NCBI RefSeq assembly: GCF_900206265.1
Contig: NZ_LT907782.1
Coordinates: 124,001 to 188,000, forward strand
Origin: Nitrosomonas ureae
Lineage (GTDB): Bacteria; Pseudomonadota; Gammaproteobacteria; Burkholderiales; Nitrosomonadaceae
Direction of reading: 5' to 3'
Length of the DNA stretch: 64,000 bases
Program-made: the position numbers and the translations under genes
Part shown: piece by piece, positions 966-12,546 of the stretch
How the letters are laid out: every line of letters starts with the position of its first letter
Position numbering within the stretch: position 1 is the stretch's first letter
Notes under the pieces: model-generated
What the model was told of the DNA's origin: nothing
Databases searched by the model: none
Seen by the model: only the letters and a program-made list of their open reading frames with translations

Positions 966-2480
966 ATGACTGAACCGTTGATTATTGCCAAAATCGGCAG
1001 TGCCGAGTTAGAACTTTTGCCTGAAATGTCCACTCGGCACGGTTGTATCACGGGTGCGACGGGGACGGGCAAGACGGTGACCTTGCAGAAACTGGCAGAA
1101 AGTTTTTCGGGTATCGGTGTGCCGGTATTTATGGCCGATGTCAAAGGCGATTTAACAGGCATTAGCAAACCCGGTTCGCTGACAGATAAAATAAAAAACC
1201 GTCTGAGTATGATGCAGATGCATATTCCTGAATGGAAAGGGTTTCCAGTTACCTTGTGGGATGTGTTACAAGAAAACGGGCATCCGCTGCGTGCAACCAT
1301 TTCCGACATGGGGCCGTTGTTGCTGGCTCGTCTGCTGAATCTCAATGAAACACAGGAAGGTGTGATAACGCTGGTTTTCAAGGTGGCGGATGATTATGGA
1401 TTATTACTGCTCGATCTCAAAGACTTGCGGGCATTGCTGCAATTTGTCGGTGATAATGCTGATAGATTTAAAACTCAATATGGCAGCGTTTCCTCGGCAT
1501 CGATTGGTGCCATCCAGCGTGGTTTGTTACAGATAGAAGAACAAGGCGGGGACCAATTTTTCGGTGAACCCATGTTGAATATTGAGGATTTGCTGCAAAC
1601 TATCGATGGCAAAGGTGTCATTAATATTCTGGCTGCTGATAAGCTATTAAACTTCCCGCGATTGTATAGTACCTTTTTGCTATGGATGCTATCCGAGTTA
1701 TACGAGAATTTGCCGGAAATCGGGGATCGTGATAAACCTAAACTGGTATTCTTTTTCGATGAAGCGCATTTGCTGTTTAGCACAGCATCCCCTGCCTTGC
1801 TGGAAAAAATCGAACAGGTTGTCAGGTTGATACGTTCCAAAGGTGTCGGGGTTTACTTTGTAACGCAAAATCCATTTGATATTCCGCAGAAGGTATTAGC
1901 CCAGTTGGGTAACCGGATTCAGCATGCGTTACGCGCATTTACGCCGCGTGATCAAAAAGCTGTGAATTCTGTTGCTGAAACTATGCGCCCCAATCCGGAG
2001 CTGAATATCAAGCAGGCTATCATTGAGCTTTCCGTGGGTGAAGCACTGATTTCTTTTCTTGAGCGCGACGGCTCTCCAGGTATTACCGAACGTGCGTATA
2101 TCCTTCCTCCGGTTAGCCAGATTGGGCCTATTACACTCGAAGAGCGGCAGCAGTTGCTGCAATCTTCTATTGTAACGGGTGTGTATGAGCAGGAAATTGA
2201 CCGTGAGAGTGCCTTTGAATTATTACAGGCGCGGACGGGTAAAAACATGTTGGCTAGTGCTTCGCAGGCTCCTGACGATGAGAGCCTGAAGAAACCTTCG
2301 GAAGAAGGGATTCTGAAAGATCTAGGTGATTTATTCTCAAAACCTTCGGGAAGACGAGGGGGGCAGCGCGAGGGGGTTATTGATGCGATGGCAAAAAGCG
2401 CAGCGCGTTCGATAGGATCGTCAATTGCTCGTGAAATTACTCGTGGTCTGCTCGGATCGTTATTGGGTAGGCGGCGTTAG
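966..2480 (+). CDS. HerA-like ATPase, DUF853/YjgR family
   Basis: Predicted P-loop ATPase of the HerA/FtsK superfamily (helicase HerA-like, DUF853; E. coli YjgR is a member). Walker A GATGTGKT is at residues 30-37, and a Walker B with the run LVFFFDEAH lies near residue 265, followed by VTQNPFDIP, typical of the family. Length 504 aa matches the usual size of about 500. The C-terminus is Arg/Ser rich and ends in GRRR. The ATG at 966 is the first in frame and has no clear Shine-Dalgarno. Cellular role is unknown for the family; HerA proper works with NurA nuclease in archaeal end resection, but no NurA homologue is next to it here. Confidence 0.9.
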
Positions 2481-2833
2481 CAGGCCAGCACTTAAAAACA
2501 TACCGGATTATTACGCGCCATCTCCATCGGATTGTTCAACTTCTTGCAATTTTGATTAAATCAATATCTGCAACGTACATATCATTCTTTGCCGGATTCA
2601 AATCCAAAGACCGCATACATGCAGGCTCACCTTACCCATTGATTCAACTGATTCATTGCTGAATCGGCGCTATCGGAAGGTTCTCTGATTGTGCCTATTC
2701 ATCCATAAAATTTACTCAGCATTGTGTAAACCGAACCATTGGGTTGGCGTTAATGGGCATGGTTTTGCTTAATTTAAATTTCTTGTTGCATCGATTGATT
2801 AAATTTCCAGAGTCTCTATAAAACAAACCGGCC
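2481..2833. other. Intergenic region, 353 bp
   Basis: AT-rich spacer upstream of the ATP-grasp gene cluster. I see no gene, no clear hairpin terminator and no convincing -35/-10 pair. It must carry the promoter of the 2834 cluster unless that is transcribed from the HerA-like gene. Confidence 0.5.
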
Positions 2834-3919
2834 ATGCAAAAACTCAATATCGCTTATACCTGCAATATCCGCCATCCAGGCATGGAAGATGAGCGCTACG
2901 GTGAATTTGAAAGCCCGGCAACCATTGCAGCAGTAGCAACAGCGCTTGAGCGTGTGGGTGCGGATGTTGAAGTGATTGATGTGGGCAAGGATATTTACCA
3001 TCAGCTCGAAAAGCGCAGGCACCAAATCGATCTGGTATTCAATAACGCAGAGGGCCTGGAGGAGAAAGAGTTGCGCGAAGCCATTGTTCCCTTCTTTTGT
3101 GAGCATTTGGGCATTCCGTATACCGGCAGCAGCCCCAAGACTTTTATCAACAAAATGGATAAGGCAACGGCAAAAAGAATTGTTGCCTATGAAGGAGTGC
3201 CAACAGCGAAATTTCAACTCATGGTGCCGGGCGATCAACTCAAGAATCTGGCTTTTCCCTTAATGGTTAAACCCTACAGCGAGGGAACCAGTATCGGTAT
3301 CAGCCAGAAAAGCAAAGTGCATGATGAAGCAGAGCTTAATGCCGCCATTGCAGCGGTTTATTCTCAGTGTGAGCAAGCTGCGTTGGTGGAAGAATTTCTG
3401 CCTGGAACCGAATACACGATCGGTTTGATTGGAAATTATGTATTACCGATACTGGAAATTAATTTTGCCCATATTCCCGGGCATCCCCAGCTGCGCGATC
3501 CGCATGTAAAAAGTATTGAAAATCCATATATTTCTCATATGGCGTGGACAGATCAAGCCAGAAATTTTGCCAAGATGGCGATAGCGGCGCATGAAGCGCT
3601 TGAGGCACGTGATTATAATCGCATGGATTTTCGCGTGCGTGAGGGCCAGTTGTACTTCCTGGAGGCTAATGTCATACCCGGCATCCATCCAACAGACGCG
3701 GATCTCACTAACATGTGCCGGCACGTTGGCATCGTGCACCAGGATATGGTCGCACTTATCGTCGATAAAGCGGTGAAGCGGCTGGCATTGCGCTATCCCG
3801 AAAGATTCCATGACAAAACCCAATGGCTCGAGGACATCGCGGATTCAACTATTAACAAGGTGGCGAAAGCTGGTTTTCTTACTCATCAAGGGCGGATGTA
3901 TACCCTGCTCGGAAAATAA
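2834..3919 (+). CDS. ATP-grasp ligase of the D-alanine--D-alanine ligase family
   Basis: Predicted ATP-dependent carboxylate-amine ligase with the fold of D-Ala-D-Ala ligase. The glycine-rich serine loop SEGTSIGIS is at residues 149-157. The metal-binding residues of the last ATP-grasp block are kept: YNRMDF (Asp265) and YFLEANVIPG (Glu277, Asn279). The N-terminal region ends in YTGSSP, another Ddl signature. It is 361 aa, longer than most Ddl (about 305-350), and the region between VLPILEIN and the C-terminal block differs from typical peptidoglycan Ddl. It sits 19 bp upstream of a GNAT gene and a DapF-family epimerase, away from any mur/fts gene. I infer a specialised amino acid or dipeptide ligase; a second cell-wall Ddl remains possible. 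Confidence 0.82.
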   Translation: MQKLNIAYTCNIRHPGMEDERYGEFESPATIAAVATALERVGADVEVIDVGKDIYHQLEKRRHQIDLVFNNAEGLEEKELREAIVPFFCEHLGIPYTGSSPKTFINKMDKATAKRIVAYEGVPTAKFQLMVPGDQLKNLAFPLMVKPYSEGTSIGISQKSKVHDEAELNAAIAAVYSQCEQAALVEEFLPGTEYTIGLIGNYVLPILEINFAHIPGHPQLRDPHVKSIENPYISHMAWTDQARNFAKMAIAAHEALEARDYNRMDFRVREGQLYFLEANVIPGIHPTDADLTNMCRHVGIVHQDMVALIVDKAVKRLALRYPERFHDKTQWLEDIADSTINKVAKAGFLTHQGRMYTLLGK

Positions 3920-3938
3920 CTCATCTATAAATGAAATC

Positions 3939-4409
3939 ATGATTGTTCCCATTTCTAAAGACCTGTTTCCTGATCTTGTGAAAATTGCATTGCAAGATTT
4001 CAGCTCCTTATATCAAACCGAAGTTCATGCCGAGCTGGAAGACATTGTGCATGGCCGCTGTTTCGGACTGTGTGCCGTGAATGACGGTCGCCCGATTGGG
4101 TATGTGATCGCAAAAAGAACAGTTGATACCTATCATTTGCTGACGATCGCAGTGGATGAGAACCATCGGGGCAAAGGCTATGGTTCGCGCTTACTGGATG
4201 GCATTTTTGCCGAAGTCGCGCAGCAAGGGGGAAGAATACTCAATGTCATTACCGATGCCGATGCCAGCGAAAGCCTGCGTTTTTATCTTAAAAACGGATT
4301 TTTCCTCACCGGCATCGTGCAGGATGAATTTATCTCAGGTGTGGCTCAAGTGCATCTAACCCGAAGGATGGGATCCAGTCTGAAACAAATCAATTTTACA
4401 ACCGCTTAA
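3939..4409 (+). CDS. GNAT-family N-acetyltransferase
   Basis: Predicted acetyl-CoA-dependent N-acetyltransferase, 156 aa. The acetyl-CoA pyrophosphate loop reads NHRGKGYG at residues 75-82, preceded by the strand LLTIAVDE, and a C-terminal FYLKNGF motif is typical of GNAT enzymes. The reading frame is open further upstream into the ATP-grasp gene, but the ATG at 3939 begins the conserved domain and follows that gene's stop by 19 bp, so I place the start there. The substrate is unknown. Its position between an ATP-grasp ligase and an amino acid epimerase suggests acetylation of an amino group in the same small-molecule pathway. Confidence 0.85.
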   Translation: MIVPISKDLFPDLVKIALQDFSSLYQTEVHAELEDIVHGRCFGLCAVNDGRPIGYVIAKRTVDTYHLLTIAVDENHRGKGYGSRLLDGIFAEVAQQGGRILNVITDADASESLRFYLKNGFFLTGIVQDEFISGVAQVHLTRRMGSSLKQINFTTA

Positions 4410-4428
4410 CGTTGAAAAGGACAAAGCA

Positions 4429-5265
4429 ATGAGGATTATGGCAACAAAAATGGATGGTTGTGGCAACTCATTTCTGTTGGTTGATGAGATGAAGAACCCT
4501 GTACCCGGATTCGATCGCGCTCGGATCTCCCATGCCTTGGCAACACAACATGATACCGATGGGATTCTTTATGTGGATCAACAGCAGGGAATGCCCACGA
4601 TGAAAATTTTTGATCGCGATGGCACCGAAGAAACCATGTGCGGCAACGGGCTGCGTTGTGCAACGCGTTATTTCCGCGATACTTATGTGCGCAGTAATGT
4701 ATTCAACATCATTACCGGTGATGGTCTGAAGGAAGTGTTCGTCGATAACGACTGCGTGGAGGTCAATTTGGGCGCCGCACGGGATTACCGGCAAATCGAT
4801 CAGAATTGCCATTATGTGTATACCGGCGTGCCGCATGTCGTGGTCATCGGTTCCGAGATCAGCTTGGAAGCCGCAAGAGCGCAGGGGCAATCGTTGCGCA
4901 ACGATAAATCACTGTGCGAGTTGGTCGGCCACCCGGAAGGTGTAAATGTCAATTTCATTTGGCGCACTACGGATAGCATTACTCTGCGTACCTTTGAGGT
5001 TGGCGTGGAGGATGTTACGCAAAGCTGCGGAACCGGCAGTGCGGCAAGTGCGTATGTTGCCGCTAAGGTGTTTGGAATCGATTTGCCCATTCTGACGCAT
5101 TCTCTGGGTGGTAGCCTAAGCATCAGAAACGATGGTGGGGGGTTGTCGATCAGCGGTCCGACGCGCTATCAAGGAAAAGTGATCGGGTTTGCCCACGCAA
5201 ACTTTGCCAGATCCGTCGAACCGGTCGATTTCTGGCAGCGCAATTATGCCTGGCAGGGGATGTAG
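4429..5265 (+). CDS. Diaminopimelate epimerase (DapF) family protein, possibly a paralogue
   Basis: Cofactor-independent amino acid epimerase or racemase with two catalytic cysteines, both present: Cys71 in MCGNGLRC and Cys200 in SCGTGSA. The N-terminal GCGNSF replaces the usual GLGNDF of DapF. Length is 278 aa, normal for the family. A ribosome-binding AAAGGA-like stretch lies just upstream of the ATG at 4429. The canonical role is LL- to meso-diaminopimelate for lysine and peptidoglycan. Here the gene is 19 bp behind a GNAT gene and an ATP-grasp ligase rather than near lysine or xerC genes, so it may act on another amino acid, as DapF-like CntK does on histidine. Which holds cannot be told from this window. 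Confidence 0.85.
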   Translation: MRIMATKMDGCGNSFLLVDEMKNPVPGFDRARISHALATQHDTDGILYVDQQQGMPTMKIFDRDGTEETMCGNGLRCATRYFRDTYVRSNVFNIITGDGLKEVFVDNDCVEVNLGAARDYRQIDQNCHYVYTGVPHVVVIGSEISLEAARAQGQSLRNDKSLCELVGHPEGVNVNFIWRTTDSITLRTFEVGVEDVTQSCGTGSAASAYVAAKVFGIDLPILTHSLGGSLSIRNDGGGLSISGPTRYQGKVIGFAHANFARSVEPVDFWQRNYAWQGM

Positions 5266-5359
5266 ATCGTTTGCTCATCCTTTTGGAGTTGAAAGATCGG
5301 TACGGTTTTTATTATTGCGGCATTGTTAAAGCCGGAAAGTTTTTTCATAAGGCAGGAAT

Positions 5360-5641
5360 ATGGAATTCTCATTCGTTACTTTCTTTCTCATCATGGCTGC
5401 AATGGCCGTGGCGGATGTTTGCTGGACGCTGTATTTTATCGATGTGGATGAAAGAAGGGCCCATGCTGCCGCGTTCTGGTCGGCGATGATCATTCTGGTT
5501 ACCGCATTCACCGTCACCAATTATGTCGAGAACAAGATTTATATCGCAGCCGCTTTCCTCGGGGCGTATTTGGGCACCTATGGCACGATTGAATGGAAGA
5601 AAAAAATGGAAGCGAAATCAAAGCCAAAAATGATCGATTGA
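5360..5641 (+). CDS. Small membrane protein, three predicted helices
   Basis: A 93-aa protein with three hydrophobic segments at about residues 3-26, 36-56 and 60-78, and a basic Lys-rich tail. The first helix contains an Asp (AVADVCW). A GGCAGGA stretch precedes the ATG at 5360. I do not recognise the family. The layout (short helices, a final AAAFLGAYLGTYGTIE segment) recalls small inner-membrane proteins of the UPF0316 type, but this is only a resemblance. It lies 95 bp behind the epimerase gene on the same strand and could be the transport or anchoring part of that cluster. Confidence 0.65.
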   Translation: MEFSFVTFFLIMAAMAVADVCWTLYFIDVDERRAHAAAFWSAMIILVTAFTVTNYVENKIYIAAAFLGAYLGTYGTIEWKKKMEAKSKPKMID

Positions 5642-5854
5642 GTTTTTTTGCAACACTTGCTCCGCACCAGCTGCGGTATTACATGCCATTTCATCCCTTG
5701 ATTGACGAGTTTTAATCGCGCCTAATCATTGTTGAAAATTCCTGGAGTTTGCCCTACGGGATGCCGCAAACGCTGCCCTGAATTCTTTTCTTTCTCCTCC
5801 CAGTTAGTGTACGCTGCTGTTTTTTTAAACATATAAGCAGGCTTTTGGGTTGTC

Positions 5855-7381
5855 ATGATTACCGGTGCCATCAAAAATCAAGTCGATCAAATCTGGAACA
5901 CGTTCTGGTCGGGCGGCGTATCCAATCCTTTGTCGGTGATCGAGCAAATTACCTATCTGTTATTTGCCAAGCGTCTGGATGAATTGCATGCCGCCAAGGA
6001 AAAGCAGGCCAGCCTTCTCGGCGAGCCGATACACAACCCCATTTTTGAACCGCAGCAAACCGATCTGCGCTGGTCGTACTTCAAGGATTTCGACCCCGAG
6101 CGCAAATTCGCCGTGTTCAAAGATCAAGTGTTTCCGTTCATCAAATCGCTCAATGGCCGCGCCGGGAGTGCGTACACACGTTTCATGAAGGATGCAGTGT
6201 TCATCATCCCGACACCCGCGCTACTGGATAAAGTCACCAACATGCTCGACGCCATCCCGATGCACGACCGCGATACCAAGGGCGATCTGTACGAATACAT
6301 GTTGTCCAAGATCGCCACCGCCGGGCAGAATGGCCAGTTCCGCACGCCGCGGCATATCATCAAACTGATGGTCGAACTCACCGCGCCCACGCCGAAGGAC
6401 ATCATCGGCGATCCGGCGTGCGGCACTTGCGGTTATCTGGTTGCAGCAGCGGAATATCTGGAGCAGCACCACAAAACCATGCTGCTGGATGAAACACTGA
6501 AGAAACATTTCCATCACCATATGTTCCACGGCGCCGATTTCGATTCATCGATGTTGCGCATCGGCGCGATGAATATGACGCTGCACGGCATCGACAATCC
6601 GTCGATCGACAACCGCGACAGTCTCAGCGAAGACCACGCGCTGCATCGCAACGCCTATACGATAATCCTCGCCAATCCGCCATTCAAAGGTTCGCTCGAT
6701 TTCGACGGCACCGCCAAGGATCTGCTGCAAGTGTGCAAAACCAAAAAGACCGAACTGCTGTTCATCAGTTTGTTCCTGAAACAGCTTAAGCCTGGCGGGC
6801 GCTGCGCCTGCATCGTGCCGGACGGCGTGCTGTTCGGCTCCAGCAACGCGCACCAGCAACTGCGCCGGACACTAGTGGAAGAACACAAACTCAACGCCGT
6901 TATCTCCATGCCCTCCGGCGTATTCAAACCCTATGCAGGCGTGTCGACTGCGATCCTGATTTTTACACGCACCGACTCCGGCGGCACCGATAAGGTTTTC
7001 TTTTACGATATGCAGGCCGATGGGTTCAGCCTGGACGATAAGCGTGAACCGCTATTGACGCCGGAACAACAAGAACTCATCCGTCATTCCCGCGCAGGCG
7101 GGAATCCAGCACTTCATGCCCGAAACAACATCCCGGACATTATCGCCGGATACGGACAATGGCAAGCGACCCGGCAGGGTTTTGCGGATAAAAAGCAACA
7201 AGCCTTTGTGGTGGATAAAGCCGACATCGCCGCCAACAAATACGACCTGTCGATCAACCGTTACCGGGAAATTGAATACCAGCAAATCGAATATGAATCG
7301 CCGCAGGTCATTTTGGACAAGCTGGAAGCGTTAGAAGCGGAGATTTTGGAGGATTTGAAAGCGTTGAGGAGGATGTTGTGA
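5855..7381 (+). CDS. hsdM: Type I restriction-modification system, methyltransferase subunit HsdM
   Basis: N6-adenine DNA methyltransferase subunit of a type I system; with HsdS it forms the modification enzyme and with HsdR the restriction enzyme. It has an N-terminal HsdM helical domain (residues 1-140), the SAM-binding motif DPACGTCG at 186-193 and the catalytic motif NPPF at 274-277. Length 508 aa is normal. A REP-like palindrome has been absorbed in frame near residue 410 (HSRAGGNPA), between the catalytic domain and the C-terminal helices. The gene is richer in GC than its flanks. Its stop overlaps the hsdS start by 4 bp (GTGA), with AGGAGG just upstream, so the two are translationally coupled. 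Confidence 0.95.
   Translation: MITGAIKNQVDQIWNTFWSGGVSNPLSVIEQITYLLFAKRLDELHAAKEKQASLLGEPIHNPIFEPQQTDLRWSYFKDFDPERKFAVFKDQVFPFIKSLNGRAGSAYTRFMKDAVFIIPTPALLDKVTNMLDAIPMHDRDTKGDLYEYMLSKIATAGQNGQFRTPRHIIKLMVELTAPTPKDIIGDPACGTCGYLVAAAEYLEQHHKTMLLDETLKKHFHHHMFHGADFDSSMLRIGAMNMTLHGIDNPSIDNRDSLSEDHALHRNAYTIILANPPFKGSLDFDGTAKDLLQVCKTKKTELLFISLFLKQLKPGGRCACIVPDGVLFGSSNAHQQLRRTLVEEHKLNAVISMPSGVFKPYAGVSTAILIFTRTDSGGTDKVFFYDMQADGFSLDDKREPLLTPEQQELIRHSRAGGNPALHARNNIPDIIAGYGQWQATRQGFADKKQQAFVVDKADIAANKYDLSINRYREIEYQQIEYESPQVILDKLEALEAEILEDLKALRRML
7086..7105. repeat. REP-like palindrome inside hsdM
   Basis: ATTCCCGC-GCAG-GCGGGAAT, a perfect stem of 8 bp with a 4-base loop, flanked by CGTC and CCAG. This is the widespread CTGGATTCCCGCNNNNGCGGGAATGACG type of proteobacterial intergenic palindrome, here in reverse orientation and read through as HSRAGGNPA in the HsdM frame. 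Confidence 0.85.
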
Positions 7382-8523
7382 TTTCTCAGACCCCTTTGGT
7401 TAAAGTTTGCGAAATCATTATGGGGCAGGCTCCCGTAGGTAGTTCATACAATGAAAGTGGCGAAGGTTATGCTTTGATTGCTGGAGCTGGCGATTTTGGC
7501 GAATATTTCCCAGAACCAAAGAAACATACAGTTAAGCCAATTCGTGTATCTAAACTTAATGATCTTATCTTGTGTATTCGTGCAACTATTGGTGATTTAA
7601 ATTGGAGTGATAAAGAATATTGCCTTGGAAGAGGTGTTGCTGGATTACGGCCTGATCCTGAAAAGCTAGATAAGAGCTATCTTTGGCACTTTATTCAGTC
7701 TAATAAAGAGCAACTTGAATCAAAGGGAACGGGATCAACATTTAAACAAATTAGCCGGACTCATATTGAAGAATGGGAAATTCCAGTTCTGCCATTGGAG
7801 GAACAAAAGCGCATCGTAGCAATACTGGACAAGGCCGATGCCATACGCCGCAAACGCCAGCAAGCCATCGCCCTCACCGACCAATTCCTCCGCTCCATTT
7901 TTTTGGAGCTATTTGGTGATCCGGTGACGAATCCTAAGGGATGGGGTTTGGTAAATTTTGGTTCGGTTGGTCAACTTGATAGAGGTAAATCAAAGCATAG
8001 ACCAAGAAATGATCCAGTCTTATTGGACGGAGATCATCCACTCATACAAACTGGTGATGTCGCAAATTCTGGCGGATATATTACAGAATATAAATCAACT
8101 TATTCTGATGTTGGATTGAGACAAAGTAAGAAATGGCCTGCCGGTACTCTGTGTATTACGATTGCTGCAAATATTGCAAATACGGGAATATTGGAGTTTG
8201 ATGCTTGCTTTCCTGACAGCATTGTCGGTTTCACTCCTAATGAATTGGTGACAGTCGAATATGTACAAGCTTGGCTTGGGTTTTTACAGAAGATTATCGA
8301 AGATGCTGCGCCTGAATCAGCACAAAAGAATATTAATTTGGAAATTCTTAGAGGTTTAGTGATTCCTTTGCCAGCTATTGAGCAGCAGAAGAAATTTAGT
8401 CACATAGTTCATCATGCTAAGAGCACAAAAGAAAAACTGGCTAGCAATATAAACGAAATACAAACTCTTTTTGCTAGTTTAACTCAGCGTGCTTTTTGTG
8501 GCGAATTAAGCCAAATTGCATAG
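7378..8523 (+). CDS. hsdS: Type I restriction-modification system, specificity subunit HsdS
   Basis: DNA-recognition subunit of the type I system, 381 aa, starting with GTG at 7378 (4-bp overlap with hsdM; AGGAGG ribosome site inside hsdM). Two target-recognition domains occupy about residues 1-137 and 183-345. They are separated by the central conserved helix LPLEEQKRIVAILDKADAIR, running on through RRKRQQAIALTDQFL, and followed by a second conserved region near the end (LPAIEQQKKFSHIV). The recognition domains are markedly AT-rich, whereas the central conserved segment (7792-7915) is GC-rich like hsdM and hsdR, which indicates exchange of recognition domains. Target sequence cannot be predicted. 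Confidence 0.94.
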   Translation: MISQTPLVKVCEIIMGQAPVGSSYNESGEGYALIAGAGDFGEYFPEPKKHTVKPIRVSKLNDLILCIRATIGDLNWSDKEYCLGRGVAGLRPDPEKLDKSYLWHFIQSNKEQLESKGTGSTFKQISRTHIEEWEIPVLPLEEQKRIVAILDKADAIRRKRQQAIALTDQFLRSIFLELFGDPVTNPKGWGLVNFGSVGQLDRGKSKHRPRNDPVLLDGDHPLIQTGDVANSGGYITEYKSTYSDVGLRQSKKWPAGTLCITIAANIANTGILEFDACFPDSIVGFTPNELVTVEYVQAWLGFLQKIIEDAAPESAQKNINLEILRGLVIPLPAIEQQKKFSHIVHHAKSTKEKLASNINEIQTLFASLTQRAFCGELSQIA

Positions 8524-8563
8524 ATGGCGACCATTAAAAATAAATTTGTATAAACTGGATAGT

Positions 8564-8591
8564 GTGGATACCGGCCTTTGCCGGTATGACG
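8564..8591. repeat. REP-like palindrome between hsdS and the GIY-YIG gene
   Basis: The core ATACCGGC-CTTT-GCCGGTAT (8568-8587) has 8-bp perfect arms, flanked by GTGG and GACG. It is the same element class as the palindrome in hsdM, in the opposite orientation and with a different stem sequence. Confidence 0.8.
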
Positions 8592-8659
8592 GGCTATTGG
8601 GTGAAGGCTGTGATAGTTATGGCGATCATGCCGGTTTGAAGTGGAATGACTGTTAAAAC

Positions 8660-8953
8660 ATGACTGAGAAACAACCGGCGGTTTATATGTTGGCCAGCAA
8701 ACGGAATGGTACGCTATACATTGGTGTGACGTCGAATCTGATCCGGCGGGTTTGGGAGCACAAGCATGATTTGGTGGAGGGTTTTACCAAGAAATATCAG
8801 GTGCATCAGCTGGTCTGGTATGAGTTGCATGCAATGATGGATTCCGCGATTAGCCGGGAGAAAGCGATGAAGAATTGGAAACGTGCCTGGAAAGTCAGCA
8901 GAATTGAAGCGGTGAATCCTGACTGGCAGGATTTATATCCTGGTATTTTGTAA
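8660..8953 (+). CDS. GIY-YIG domain protein, UPF0213-like
   Basis: Stand-alone GIY-YIG endonuclease-fold protein of 97 aa. The two motif strands are YMLAS (residues 9-13) and LYIGV (19-23), followed by the conserved RRVWEHK helix with its Arg, and YE further on as the likely metal-ligand region. It contains the FTKKY and EKAMKNWKR motifs of the small single-domain family (YhbQ/UPF0213-like). The gene ends 6 bp before the GTG start of hsdR, so it is probably co-transcribed with it. Biological function of this small family is not settled; a role in the restriction system is only inferred from position. Confidence 0.88.
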   Translation: MTEKQPAVYMLASKRNGTLYIGVTSNLIRRVWEHKHDLVEGFTKKYQVHQLVWYELHAMMDSAISREKAMKNWKRAWKVSRIEAVNPDWQDLYPGIL

Positions 8954-8959
8954 AAGGCA

Positions 8960-11900
8960 GTGTTTGTTGATGACAATTTTAATGATCACAGTGTTGTGAA
9001 ACCGTCTAACTTTAACTTTCTAGCGAAGCATTGGGCTTTTCTGCATGGCGATGCGCAACAGGTGGAACGTTACACGTTGCGTGATCCGCGCGCGGCGGCG
9101 ATTTATGCGCGGCGCACGTTGGAGTTGTCGCTGCGCTGGTTGTTCGCCAATGATACGGCACTGAAACACCCTTATGAAAAAAGCCTAGCGGCAATGATTC
9201 ATGAGCCGATGTTTGCCGGCAATATCCGCCAGGGATTGTTTCACGACATCAAATTCATCCACCGGCTGGGCAATGTCGCCGCGCACGGTGATCAACATAT
9301 TTCCACGCAGGAGAGTGTGAAAGCGGCGATAGCATTACATGCCTTTCTCGGTTGGTTGTCGCGCGTATACACACGCGACAATGTTGCACCACAACCGTTC
9401 CAAGTGGATTGGCTGCCGCAGGCTGAAGTACAAACCCTGCCGCTAACGGTATCGCAGCTGGAACAAATCCAGCAGGAATTGGTCGTTAAAGATGCCGCCG
9501 CAGCCGCTGCTCATGAGAAACTGACGCAAACGGAAACCGAGCTGGCAGAGCTGCGTGCGCAACTAGCCGCATTACAACAGCTAAAGCAAGTCAACCAGAA
9601 AACCATCGGTAGCGGCGAATACACCGAAGCACAGACGCGCGAGCTGATGATCGACGTAATGCTGCGCGAAGCGGGTTGGGACCCGAAGGCGGCGCATGTC
9701 ACGGAATTTGAAGTGCGCCAGTGCATGCCGACTGTGAACGGAGAGCGCAATGGCACCGGTTATGTCGATTACGTACTGTGGAGCGATGACGGCAAGCCGG
9801 TGGCGTTGATCGAAGCCAAGAAAACCCGCCAGGATCCGCTTGCGGGCAAACGCCAGGTGGCATTGTATGCCGATTGCCTGGAGCGACAGTTCGGCCAGCG
9901 CCCGGTCATTTATTATTCCAACGGCTACACCACTTGGTTGTGGGATGATAGCTTTTATCCGCCGCGTGAAGTGCAGGGCTTCGCCACCCGTGACGAACTG
10001 CAATGGTGCATTCATCAACGCAGTGCGCGGCAGGTGTTGCACAGCATGCAGCCGAAAGTCGGGATTGCCAGCCGCTATTACCAGCAGGAAGCCGCCAAGC
10101 GCGTGATGGAACATTTCGGTGACGCATGCAAGCGCAAAAGTTTGATCGTGATGGCAACCGGCACCGGTAAAACCCGCTTGGCAATTGCATTGGTCGACAT
10201 GCTGATGCGCGCCAACTGGGTGCGGCGCGTGTTATTTCTGGCTGACCGCATTGCACTGGTGAATCAGGCGAAACGCGAATTTAACCGGCATTTGCCGCAT
10301 GTGTCGGTGGCGAGCTTGCTGGAACCGATACAAGGCGATGCGCGCGTGGTGTTTTCGACGTATCCGACGATGTTGAACTGCATCGACGGTACGCGGCGCG
10401 ACATCAAAGAAACCTTCAGTGTGGCGCACTTCGATCTGCTGATTATCGACGAAGCGCACCGCTCGGTGTATCAGAAATACGGCGCGATTTTCGATTATTT
10501 CGATGCATTGCTGCTGGGGCTGACTGCCACGCCGCGTGGCGAAGTGGAGCGCAATACGTATCGCTTGTTTGAACTTGACGATCACCAGCCGACGTATGCG
10601 TACGAATTGGAACAAGCGGTGGCGGATCAATATCTGGTGCCGCCGCGTGCGATTTCGGTGCCGCTCAAATTCCAGCGCGACGGGATTAAATATCGCGACT
10701 TATCGCCGGAAGAACAGGAAGAATACGAACGGCAGGAGCGTTTCTATGACGAAGAAAGCGGTGAACTGAAAGAGACCATCGATCCGCCGGCGCTGAATCA
10801 GTGGTTGTTCAATGTCGACACGGTGAACAAGGTGTTGATGCACCTGATGGAACACGGCATCAAGGTGGCGGGCGGTGATCAGTTGGGCAAGACCATTATT
10901 TTTGCCAAGAACAGTAAGCACGCGGATTTTATCGTCGAGCAGTTTGATAGGAACTATCCGCACTATGCCGGTAAGTTTTGCCAGAAAATCGATTTCTCGG
11001 TGAAATATGCGCAAAGCCTGATCGACGATTTCAAGGACAAGCATCGTTTCCCGCAGATCGCGGTGTCGGTCGACATGCTCGACACCGGCATTGATGTGCC
11101 GGAAATCGTCAATCTGGTGTTCTTTAAGCTGGTGCGCTCGCGCATTAAGTTCTGGCAAATGATCGGGCGCGGCACGCGGTTGTGCGAAAATCTGTTCGCA
11201 CCCGGAGAGCACAAACAAGAATTCGTTATTTTCGATTACTGCCAGAACCTGGAATTCTTCGATGCCAATCCTGCCGGATACGATGCGGGGGTACAGGAAT
11301 CGATAAAACAAAAGATTTTCAAGCGCCGCCTTGCATTGGTTGTCGCGCTGCAGAATGGATCAGCCGGAGATGTGGCGGTGAATGGTTTTGCCGCGCAGTT
11401 GAAGACGCAACTGCATAGTGGGGTGGCTGCATTGAATTTGGATAATTTCATCGTACGCCAGCAACGCAAGGAAGTGGAGCAATACACCCGGCAGGAAGCG
11501 TGGCAAATCCTGGATGAGCACGATGTGAGCGTACTTGCGGAAAAAATCAGCGGATTGCCGCTTGCGGATGCGGATGACGAATACATGCGCCGTTTTGATT
11601 TGTTGATCCTGAATCTGCAACTGGCCATTTTGCAGAACAATCCTGTGCAGGTTAATTATCAGCGCAGTGTGCAGCAGATTGTCAAAGAACTGGAGGATAA
11701 ATCGGCGATACCCAATGTGGCTGTGCAAATGCCATTGATACTGGAGTTACAGACTGATGCCTGGTGGCAGGATGTTACTCTGCCGGTGCTTGAAGACGTG
11801 CGCGTGCGGTTGCGTAAGTTGACGCGATTCATCAGCCCGGAAGAAAGGGCGGATGTGTACACTCATTTCACCGATATGCTGATTCAGGAAGAAACCGCCG

Positions 11901-12418
11901 AGTATCAGGTGATCAAGCGCGACCCGAATCTGTACAACTACCGCGAGCGGGTGCAGCGTTTTATCCGCGAACATCAGGATCATGTCACGATCCGGCGGTT
12001 AAAAAATAATGAACCGATTACGCCGATCGATATTGTTGCGCTGGAAACTATTTTGTTTGCTGACACTGGTCCGATTTCTAAGGATGCATATCAGGAAATT
12101 TATGGTCAAGAGCCGTTGGGAAAACTGGTGCGCTCGGTTGTCGGTCTGGAGCGCAGCGCCGCCAAGGCGGTGTTTTCCGGATTTTTAGCGCAGCACCCTA
12201 ACTTGAGCGCGGATCAGATGGTTTTCTTGAATGAGATTGTCGAATACTTGGTAAGAAATGGTGTTATGGAACCGCGTGCGATTTTTGAAACTCCGTTTAA
12301 TCATTATCATGAGCTGGGTGTAGTTGGTGTTTTTGGCGATACATTGAGTCGGCAAATTATCGGACATATTCAGTGCGTCAATCAGAATGCCGGGATGGTG
12401 AGTACGAGTAGCGCTTAA
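8960..12418 (+). CDS. hsdR: Type I restriction-modification system, restriction subunit HsdR with N-terminal DUF4145
   Basis: Motor and nuclease subunit of the type I restriction enzyme, 1152 aa, starting with GTG at 8960 after AAAAGG. Order of domains: DUF4145 (about residues 15-140), a coiled-coil linker (about 150-215), the HsdR N-terminal nuclease domain with ALIEAKKTR near 281-289, a superfamily 2 helicase with ATGTGKTR near 397-404 and DEAH near 496-499, the second RecA domain with MIGRGTRL, and an EcoEI-type C-terminal domain. The gene is GC-rich relative to the surrounding housekeeping genes. It is convergent with hflX. A decayed copy of residues 947-990 is found at 14074-14205, showing that a second hsdR was once here. 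Confidence 0.95.
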   Translation: MFVDDNFNDHSVVKPSNFNFLAKHWAFLHGDAQQVERYTLRDPRAAAIYARRTLELSLRWLFANDTALKHPYEKSLAAMIHEPMFAGNIRQGLFHDIKFIHRLGNVAAHGDQHISTQESVKAAIALHAFLGWLSRVYTRDNVAPQPFQVDWLPQAEVQTLPLTVSQLEQIQQELVVKDAAAAAAHEKLTQTETELAELRAQLAALQQLKQVNQKTIGSGEYTEAQTRELMIDVMLREAGWDPKAAHVTEFEVRQCMPTVNGERNGTGYVDYVLWSDDGKPVALIEAKKTRQDPLAGKRQVALYADCLERQFGQRPVIYYSNGYTTWLWDDSFYPPREVQGFATRDELQWCIHQRSARQVLHSMQPKVGIASRYYQQEAAKRVMEHFGDACKRKSLIVMATGTGKTRLAIALVDMLMRANWVRRVLFLADRIALVNQAKREFNRHLPHVSVASLLEPIQGDARVVFSTYPTMLNCIDGTRRDIKETFSVAHFDLLIIDEAHRSVYQKYGAIFDYFDALLLGLTATPRGEVERNTYRLFELDDHQPTYAYELEQAVADQYLVPPRAISVPLKFQRDGIKYRDLSPEEQEEYERQERFYDEESGELKETIDPPALNQWLFNVDTVNKVLMHLMEHGIKVAGGDQLGKTIIFAKNSKHADFIVEQFDRNYPHYAGKFCQKIDFSVKYAQSLIDDFKDKHRFPQIAVSVDMLDTGIDVPEIVNLVFFKLVRSRIKFWQMIGRGTRLCENLFAPGEHKQEFVIFDYCQNLEFFDANPAGYDAGVQESIKQKIFKRRLALVVALQNGSAGDVAVNGFAAQLKTQLHSGVAALNLDNFIVRQQRKEVEQYTRQEAWQILDEHDVSVLAEKISGLPLADADDEYMRRFDLLILNLQLAILQNNPVQVNYQRSVQQIVKELEDKSAIPNVAVQMPLILELQTDAWWQDVTLPVLEDVRVRLRKLTRFISPEERADVYTHFTDMLIQEETAEYQVIKRDPNLYNYRERVQRFIREHQDHVTIRRLKNNEPITPIDIVALETILFADTGPISKDAYQEIYGQEPLGKLVRSVVGLERSAAKAVFSGFLAQHPNLSADQMVFLNEIVEYLVRNGVMEPRAIFETPFNHYHELGVVGVFGDTLSRQIIGHIQCVNQNAGMVSTSSA

Positions 12419-12421
12419 AGG

Positions 12422-12451
12422 TTCGGAATAATTTTTATTTTCTATTTCGAA
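12422..12451. terminator. Possible terminator between hsdR and hflX
   Basis: TTCGGAATA (12422-12430) and TATTTCGAA (12443-12451) form a 9-bp stem with one mismatch around a T-rich loop. It lies directly behind the hsdR stop, in a convergent spacer, but is weak. Confidence 0.35.
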
Positions 12452-12546
12452 CGGAGTGAGAAATCTTTGGTAATTAATAGAATAAATTATTCATTACTCC
12501 AAATGGCGGTGGTTCTGCGACTTTGAATAATCGATCAATACTGTCA

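Follow-up and report, generated by a model that had tools for sequence, protein, structure and literature searches.

Four adjacent genes on the forward strand of a window from Nitrosomonas ureae, encoding a Ddl-like ATP-grasp ligase, a GNAT acetyltransferase, a DapF-like epimerase and a small membrane protein, are interpreted here, with middling confidence, as a small operon that makes a specialised metabolite of the amide type. The most likely product would be an N-acetylated dipeptide containing a D-amino acid. The window is the whole stretch of 64,000 nucleotides that was analysed and corresponds to positions 124001-188000 of a single-contig genome of 3.06 Mb; Nitrosomonas ureae Nm13 is the closest named relative found (ligase identity 96%). 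This interpretation is favoured because the four genes keep a constant order between variable flanks, in part with ATGA overlaps, occur jointly and are under purifying selection, and because canonical dapF and ddl genes lie elsewhere in the genome while the cassette enzymes keep their catalytic residues and have replaced residues that in DapF hold the distal carboxylate of diaminopimelate (DAP) and in Ddl the second-substrate serine. It is also favoured because alanine mutants of DapF lose activity with DAP (PMC5296763) and PddB, with valine at the distal arginine position, takes 2,4-diaminobutyrate (Dab) and not DAP (PMC8225329).

The ligase (361 aa, 2834..3919, + strand) matches Pfam Dala_Dala_lig_C (E 2.9e-22), the acetyltransferase (156 aa, 3939..4409, +) matches Acetyltransf_1 (E 9.4e-17) and the DapF-like protein, of the cofactor-independent racemase/epimerase type (278 aa, 4429..5265, +), matches DAP_epimerase (E 5.4e-26), and Pfam and NCBIfam agree on the class of all three. 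The start of the acetyltransferase is most likely the ATG at 3939; the start at 3810 listed for its open reading frame (ORF) would overlap the ligase. The fourth gene (93 aa, 5360..5641, +) encodes a membrane protein, judged by hydropathy, without a known family. Intergenic gaps are 19 bp between ligase and acetyltransferase, 19 bp between acetyltransferase and epimerase, and 94 bp between epimerase and membrane protein gene. A previous description made from the letters of this DNA alone (the sequence-only reading) had placed three enzymes with intact motifs on one strand, 19 bp apart, and both points hold: the ORFs lie as described, the cysteine pair of the epimerase and the ATP, Mg and catalytic residues of the ligase are kept in 29/29 alignment rows (the window and 28 related loci), and R76, G79 and G81 of the acetyltransferase are invariant in 18/18 rows (the window and 17 of the 28 loci). 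An Rfam scan of window positions 2400-6000 gave zero matches, and a scan for promoters and terminators returned about as many as shuffled sequence.

Related loci were found by scanning GTDB genome contigs with peptide patterns of the ligase, an approach that detects close relatives only. The scan matched 34 stretches, 29 of which encoded relatives, and these were reduced to 28 distinct loci that belong by title to Nitrosomonas (25), Nitrosovibrio (1), Nitrosomonadaceae (1) and a proteobacterium bin (1). In all 28 the order ligase, acetyltransferase, epimerase, membrane protein is kept on a single strand, which is more than chance would give. The ligase and acetyltransferase genes overlap by ATGA in 8/28 loci, and across loci the gap between acetyltransferase and epimerase ranges from 19 to 633 bp and that between epimerase and membrane protein gene from 25 to 357 bp; these gap sizes and overlaps make a single transcript likely, though not established for every locus. 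Genes flanking the block differ among loci, and herA, which lies upstream in the window, was found in 1/28, several loci being incomplete. The ratio of nonsynonymous to synonymous substitution rates (dN/dS) was computable for 38/44 gene pairs, the other 6 having saturated dS, and was at most 0.134 in 37/38 of these, and thus the cassette genes are under purifying selection; the lone exception (0.541) is the pair that includes the broken membrane protein gene of locus L040. This gene is broken in 2/28 loci (L040 and L045), in each of them no more than about 115 bases from where the contig stops; an insertion element or some other repeat is possible there.

Within the family, the ligase occurs in 34/125 Nitrosomonadaceae genomes and in 2/4 genera. 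The epimerase was found in 31/81 genomes of the genus, in every case with E <= 8.5e-156 and with no weaker match down to the limit of 1e-20, and all 31 also carry the ligase; three further ligase-bearing genomes fell outside the 81. The membrane protein is present in the same 31 genomes, and partial or stop-broken copies occur in three more (G1170, G018 and G1165), which lack the epimerase and perhaps retain remains of a lost cassette. Presence within the genus is therefore patchy. In broader samples, the ligase was found in 4/399 genomes of the order, all four within the genus, the membrane protein in 1/369 genomes of the class and the epimerase in 1/398 genomes of the phylum, the last two being the window's own genome only. 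A ligase profile matched 7/398 genomes of the phylum sample; the window's own genome scored 734 bits and the six others, all distant, scored 158-171 bits. No close homologue outside the family was found in the order, class and phylum samples searched. A plasmid origin was considered and rejected: 397 plasmid records matched the ligase and 51 the epimerase, none with at least 60% identity (26.9-33.1% and 26.7-31.4%, respectively, among the matches listed). The membrane protein had one weak plasmid match, in Microvirga among unrelated genes, and zero matches to phages. When trees of the ligase and of Ddl were compared for 13 genomes, some close pairs were concordant; the Ddl tree joins the pair G000/G007 to G013 (84/95, not starred), and in the ligase tree this pair falls outside a starred group of six genomes to which G013 belongs. 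This difference may hint at transfer and is too weak to claim it.

The sequence-only reading had proposed a search for a second dapF and a second ddl. Both were found in canonical form away from the cassette, so the genome holds separate copies and the cassette genes are not its only dapF and ddl. The second DapF (275 aa, C1:1.095 Mb) adjoins a DUF484-like gene, and the second Ddl (305 aa, C1:2.014 Mb) is flanked by murB-like and ftsQ-like genes, all of these neighbours being named by reading the sequences and not by family searches. The cassette epimerase shares 78/244 aligned residues with the genome's own DapF, and its N-terminus is level with that of this DapF, without an N-terminal extension of the PddB type.

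In all 29 rows the epimerase keeps both catalytic cysteines (Cys71, 4639..4641, and Cys200, 5026..5028, + strand), the asparagine for the alpha-amine, the glutamate, and the asparagine and threonine for the alpha-carboxylate. The site for the distal group is different. In DapF from C. glutamicum, Asn74, Asn159, Asn194 and Arg213 hold the distal carboxylate of DAP and each alanine mutant is almost inactive (PMC5296763); for DapF from Anabaena, too, this arginine is reported to be crucial at the distal group (PMC12039745). Three of these four residues are replaced in 29/29 rows of the cassette epimerase: Asp62 (4612..4614, +) stands at the position of Asn74 and is Asp in every row, Val134 (4828..4830, +) stands at that of Asn159 and is Val in every row, and Val191 (4999..5001, +) stands at that of Arg213, with Val in 26 and Met in 3 of the 29 rows. 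A Gln-to-Gly change at a further position (29/29) was set aside, as DapF from B. anthracis also has Gly there. The loss of the arginine together with the gain of an aspartate suggests a substrate with a positively charged side chain and without a distal carboxylate; the substrate would thus probably be a basic amino acid, for example lysine, ornithine or arginine, rather than DAP. Of four matches to diaminobutyrate aminotransferase in the genome, none reached the cut-off (the best with 221.3 vs 401.6 bits), which makes lysine, ornithine or arginine likelier than Dab. A good structural model of the epimerase (predicted local distance difference test, pLDDT, 86.9) matched the DapF fold, and the O-ureidoserine racemase structure 7vdy was among its top fold matches.

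The ligase scored below the cut-off of every NCBIfam Ddl model listed (best 146.1 vs 243 bits, among 25 of 40 families listed). It resembles Ddl in its ATP-grasp fold and catalytic residues: a structural model, weaker than that of the epimerase (pLDDT 71.6), matched Ddl structures, and nine positions aligned with the catalytic set of Ddl are kept in 29/29 rows, one further Ser being Thr. The cassette ligase differs from Ddl in a longer substrate loop, PGIHPTDADL (residues 282-291, 3677..3706, +; consensus across rows PG[IVL]HPT[ED]ADL), in which an Asp aligns with the second-substrate Ser of the Ddl loop NTSPGMTxxSL in 29/29 rows, although the alignment is gapped here and the register of the loop is therefore uncertain. 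It also differs at the position of the omega-loop Tyr, which is occupied by Asp (20 rows), Ser (7) or Asn (2), and in about 45 extra residues at the C-terminus. In a tree of 23 rows, for which the program gave a long-branch warning, the cassette ligases stand apart from five Ddl-type rows and are sister to the first ATP-grasp protein of KamA-like loci (92/94, not starred). The latter loci (L072-L075) carry a KamA-like radical S-adenosylmethionine (SAM) protein, read from its CxxxCxxC motif, together with ATP-grasp proteins, a tandem pair in L073. They share with the cassette the PG-x-H loop in the first ATP-grasp protein, and in L073 a GNAT gene adjoins; they differ from it in the radical SAM protein, in the two ATP-grasps and in that no epimerase was seen. 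To our knowledge these loci are uncharacterised, and they perhaps represent another small peptide pathway. Other ATP-grasp genes were noted in passing. A Bradyrhizobium plasmid locus (L070) holds, in a row, genes for an annotated lysine 2,3-aminomutase, a gamma-glutamyltransferase, a 7TM_transglut protein and an ATP-grasp ligase. Some Nitrosomonas genomes encode a fusion of ATP-grasp and M20 peptidase of about 750 aa, which lies beside a gamma-glutamyltransferase gene in L076 and L077 (domains checked in L076 only), with matches also in genomes G010, G014 and G019, and G026 carries both this protein and the four-gene cassette.

The residues replaced in the two active sites speak against DAP as the substrate of the epimerase and against D-Ala as that of the ligase, the support coming from these replacements only. 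An alternative is that the cassette serves the cell wall in an accessory role, with an additional DapF and a variant Ddl making an altered peptidoglycan precursor or cross-bridge to which an N-acetyl group is added. Both enzymes are near cell-wall families and the epimerase exceeds the DapF cut-off; however, canonical copies exist, the distal-carboxylate residues and the Ddl serine are replaced in 29/29 rows and presence is patchy (31/81), and we consider this explanation unlikely. The automatic label diaminopimelate epimerase is suggested to be wrong for the group of cassette epimerases.

Several observations weigh against an amide metabolite built from a basic amino acid. The epimerase passes the cut-off of the DapF equivalog model TIGR00652 (146.3 vs 114.65 bits), a cut-off that takes no account of substrate residues; the position of DapF Asn194 is Asn in 29/29 rows, so that one of the four distal residues is kept; and the best fold matches of the epimerase model are DapF structures. 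Dab, the substrate of PddB, is no obvious choice in a genome without a Dab aminotransferase over the cut-off. The ligase model is poor in the substrate loop, with pLDDT <50 at residues 282-287, and the linkage counts are not independent, all loci coming from one family.

For the N-acetylated dipeptide favoured here, we infer an order of steps, substrates, a product and a role for the membrane protein as follows. The DapF-like enzyme, acting before or after ligation, would invert the alpha-carbon, probably of a basic amino acid, without cofactor by means of its two cysteines. The Ddl-like ligase would use ATP to turn one amino acid into an acyl phosphate and join it to a second one that would differ from D-Ala, the acetyltransferase would cap an amine using acetyl-CoA, and the membrane protein may export the product or anchor the enzymes at the membrane. 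The sequence-only reading had imagined a small acetylated peptide or an opine-like compound not tied to the cell wall. Its separation from the cell wall gains from the conserved unit, the canonical dapF and ddl elsewhere and the active-site changes, and the acetylated peptide itself agrees with the set of enzymes and stays a proposal.

Among known systems, the poly-D-Dab cluster offers a close parallel in the epimerase. Its PLP-independent racemase PddB likewise descends from DapF, is a second copy and is linked to an enzyme that forms amide bonds. It keeps both cysteines and the conserved glutamate, has Val in place of the distal arginine with the other distal residues changed, and racemises Dab but none of DAP, arginine, lysine and ornithine (PMC8225329). 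It differs from the cassette epimerase in an N-terminal extension of 27-28 residues and in that all three distal asparagines are changed, and it works with a poly-D-Dab synthetase of the adenylating type (PMC8225329). The four-gene block has no such synthetase; the partner there is a Ddl-like ATP-grasp ligase.

The asnO-ngg operon for N-acetylglutaminylglutamine amide (NAGGN) is similar in that a GNAT-linked ligase gives an acetylated dipeptide, and differs in having an asparagine synthase and an aminopeptidase and no epimerase (PMC8070244). The shared logic of acetylation and peptide ligation (PMC8070244) would fit a compatible-solute pathway, in which an uncharged N-acetylated dipeptide protects against osmotic or other stress, and both marine and freshwater species are represented among the members, judged by the names in their titles. 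However, no asparagine synthase is present in the four-gene block, to which the search was confined, the genes are not known to be regulated by stress, and a D-amino acid is unnecessary for such a solute, so that this explanation also appears improbable.

The D-cycloserine cluster shares a DapF-fold racemase, O-ureidoserine racemase, and lacks the pair of Ddl-type peptide ligase and GNAT; it also has an ATP-grasp enzyme, with other partner enzymes than those of the cassette. The staphylopine/opine metallophore pathway uses nicotianamine-synthase-like and opine dehydrogenase genes, neither of which was found in the four-gene block, the rest of the genome not being searched. The opine-like product imagined before is unsupported because the conserved block has no opine-dehydrogenase-like gene. 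The histidine racemases CntK and HisR show the DapF fold re-aimed to a basic amino acid (PMC11602996), and gave weaker fold matches to the epimerase model than DapF or 7vdy.

At a threshold of 0.01, neither Pfam nor NCBIfam gave a match to the 93-aa membrane protein; Pfam matches among its members (all E 0.0078 or worse) were mutually discordant and were discarded. Hydropathy gives two strong peaks and a weaker third, so that of the three helices proposed earlier two are well marked and three are plausible, not proven. The protein adjoins the epimerase in 28/28 loci. A divergent second copy lies in the same genome at C1:2181552-2181800 (L071 5532-5810), without the enzymes and near an apparent integrase gene, and six other genomes of the genus also have a second copy. 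A system in which the ligase tags a protein with an amino acid, this membrane protein perhaps being the target, and in which acetyltransferase and epimerase modify the tag, would agree with the strong conservation and constant linkage of the membrane protein and with other ATP-grasp enzymes predicted to modify proteins (PMC4431377). Against it, the Ddl type, to which the ligase comes closest, is known to act on free amino acids, and the divergent copy has no enzymes alongside, which leaves this explanation very doubtful.

Downstream, 40 bp past the membrane protein gene, about 6.8 kb (window 5682-12495) hold an apparent type I restriction-modification set, its genes named by eye (hsdM 5855; hsdS 7378; GIY-YIG 8660; hsdR 8960-12418). 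N. ureae Nm13 (L031) has only 7 bp where the window has this stretch.

Each of these kinds of enzyme is known, and their combination appears to be new. A literature search did not find the gene combination, the residue pattern or the restriction to the family, an earlier mention in a survey of ATP-grasp amidoligases being possible. In its fullest form, which we offer only tentatively, the cassette would constitute an undescribed natural-product pathway of ammonia-oxidizing bacteria. A cofactor-independent racemase derived from DapF would supply a basic amino acid to a ligase derived from Ddl, and the resulting N-acetylated D-amino-acid dipeptide would exit through the membrane protein and serve as a signal, as a metal ligand or as a protectant. 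The four genes also offer a compact case for testing how DapF and Ddl, both enzymes of the cell wall, would have been re-aimed to new substrates. Nitrosomonas genomes are usually regarded as lean, with little secondary metabolism; if the interpretation is true, some nitrifiers, and not others, would make a specific small molecule by a conserved but patchy four-gene pathway.

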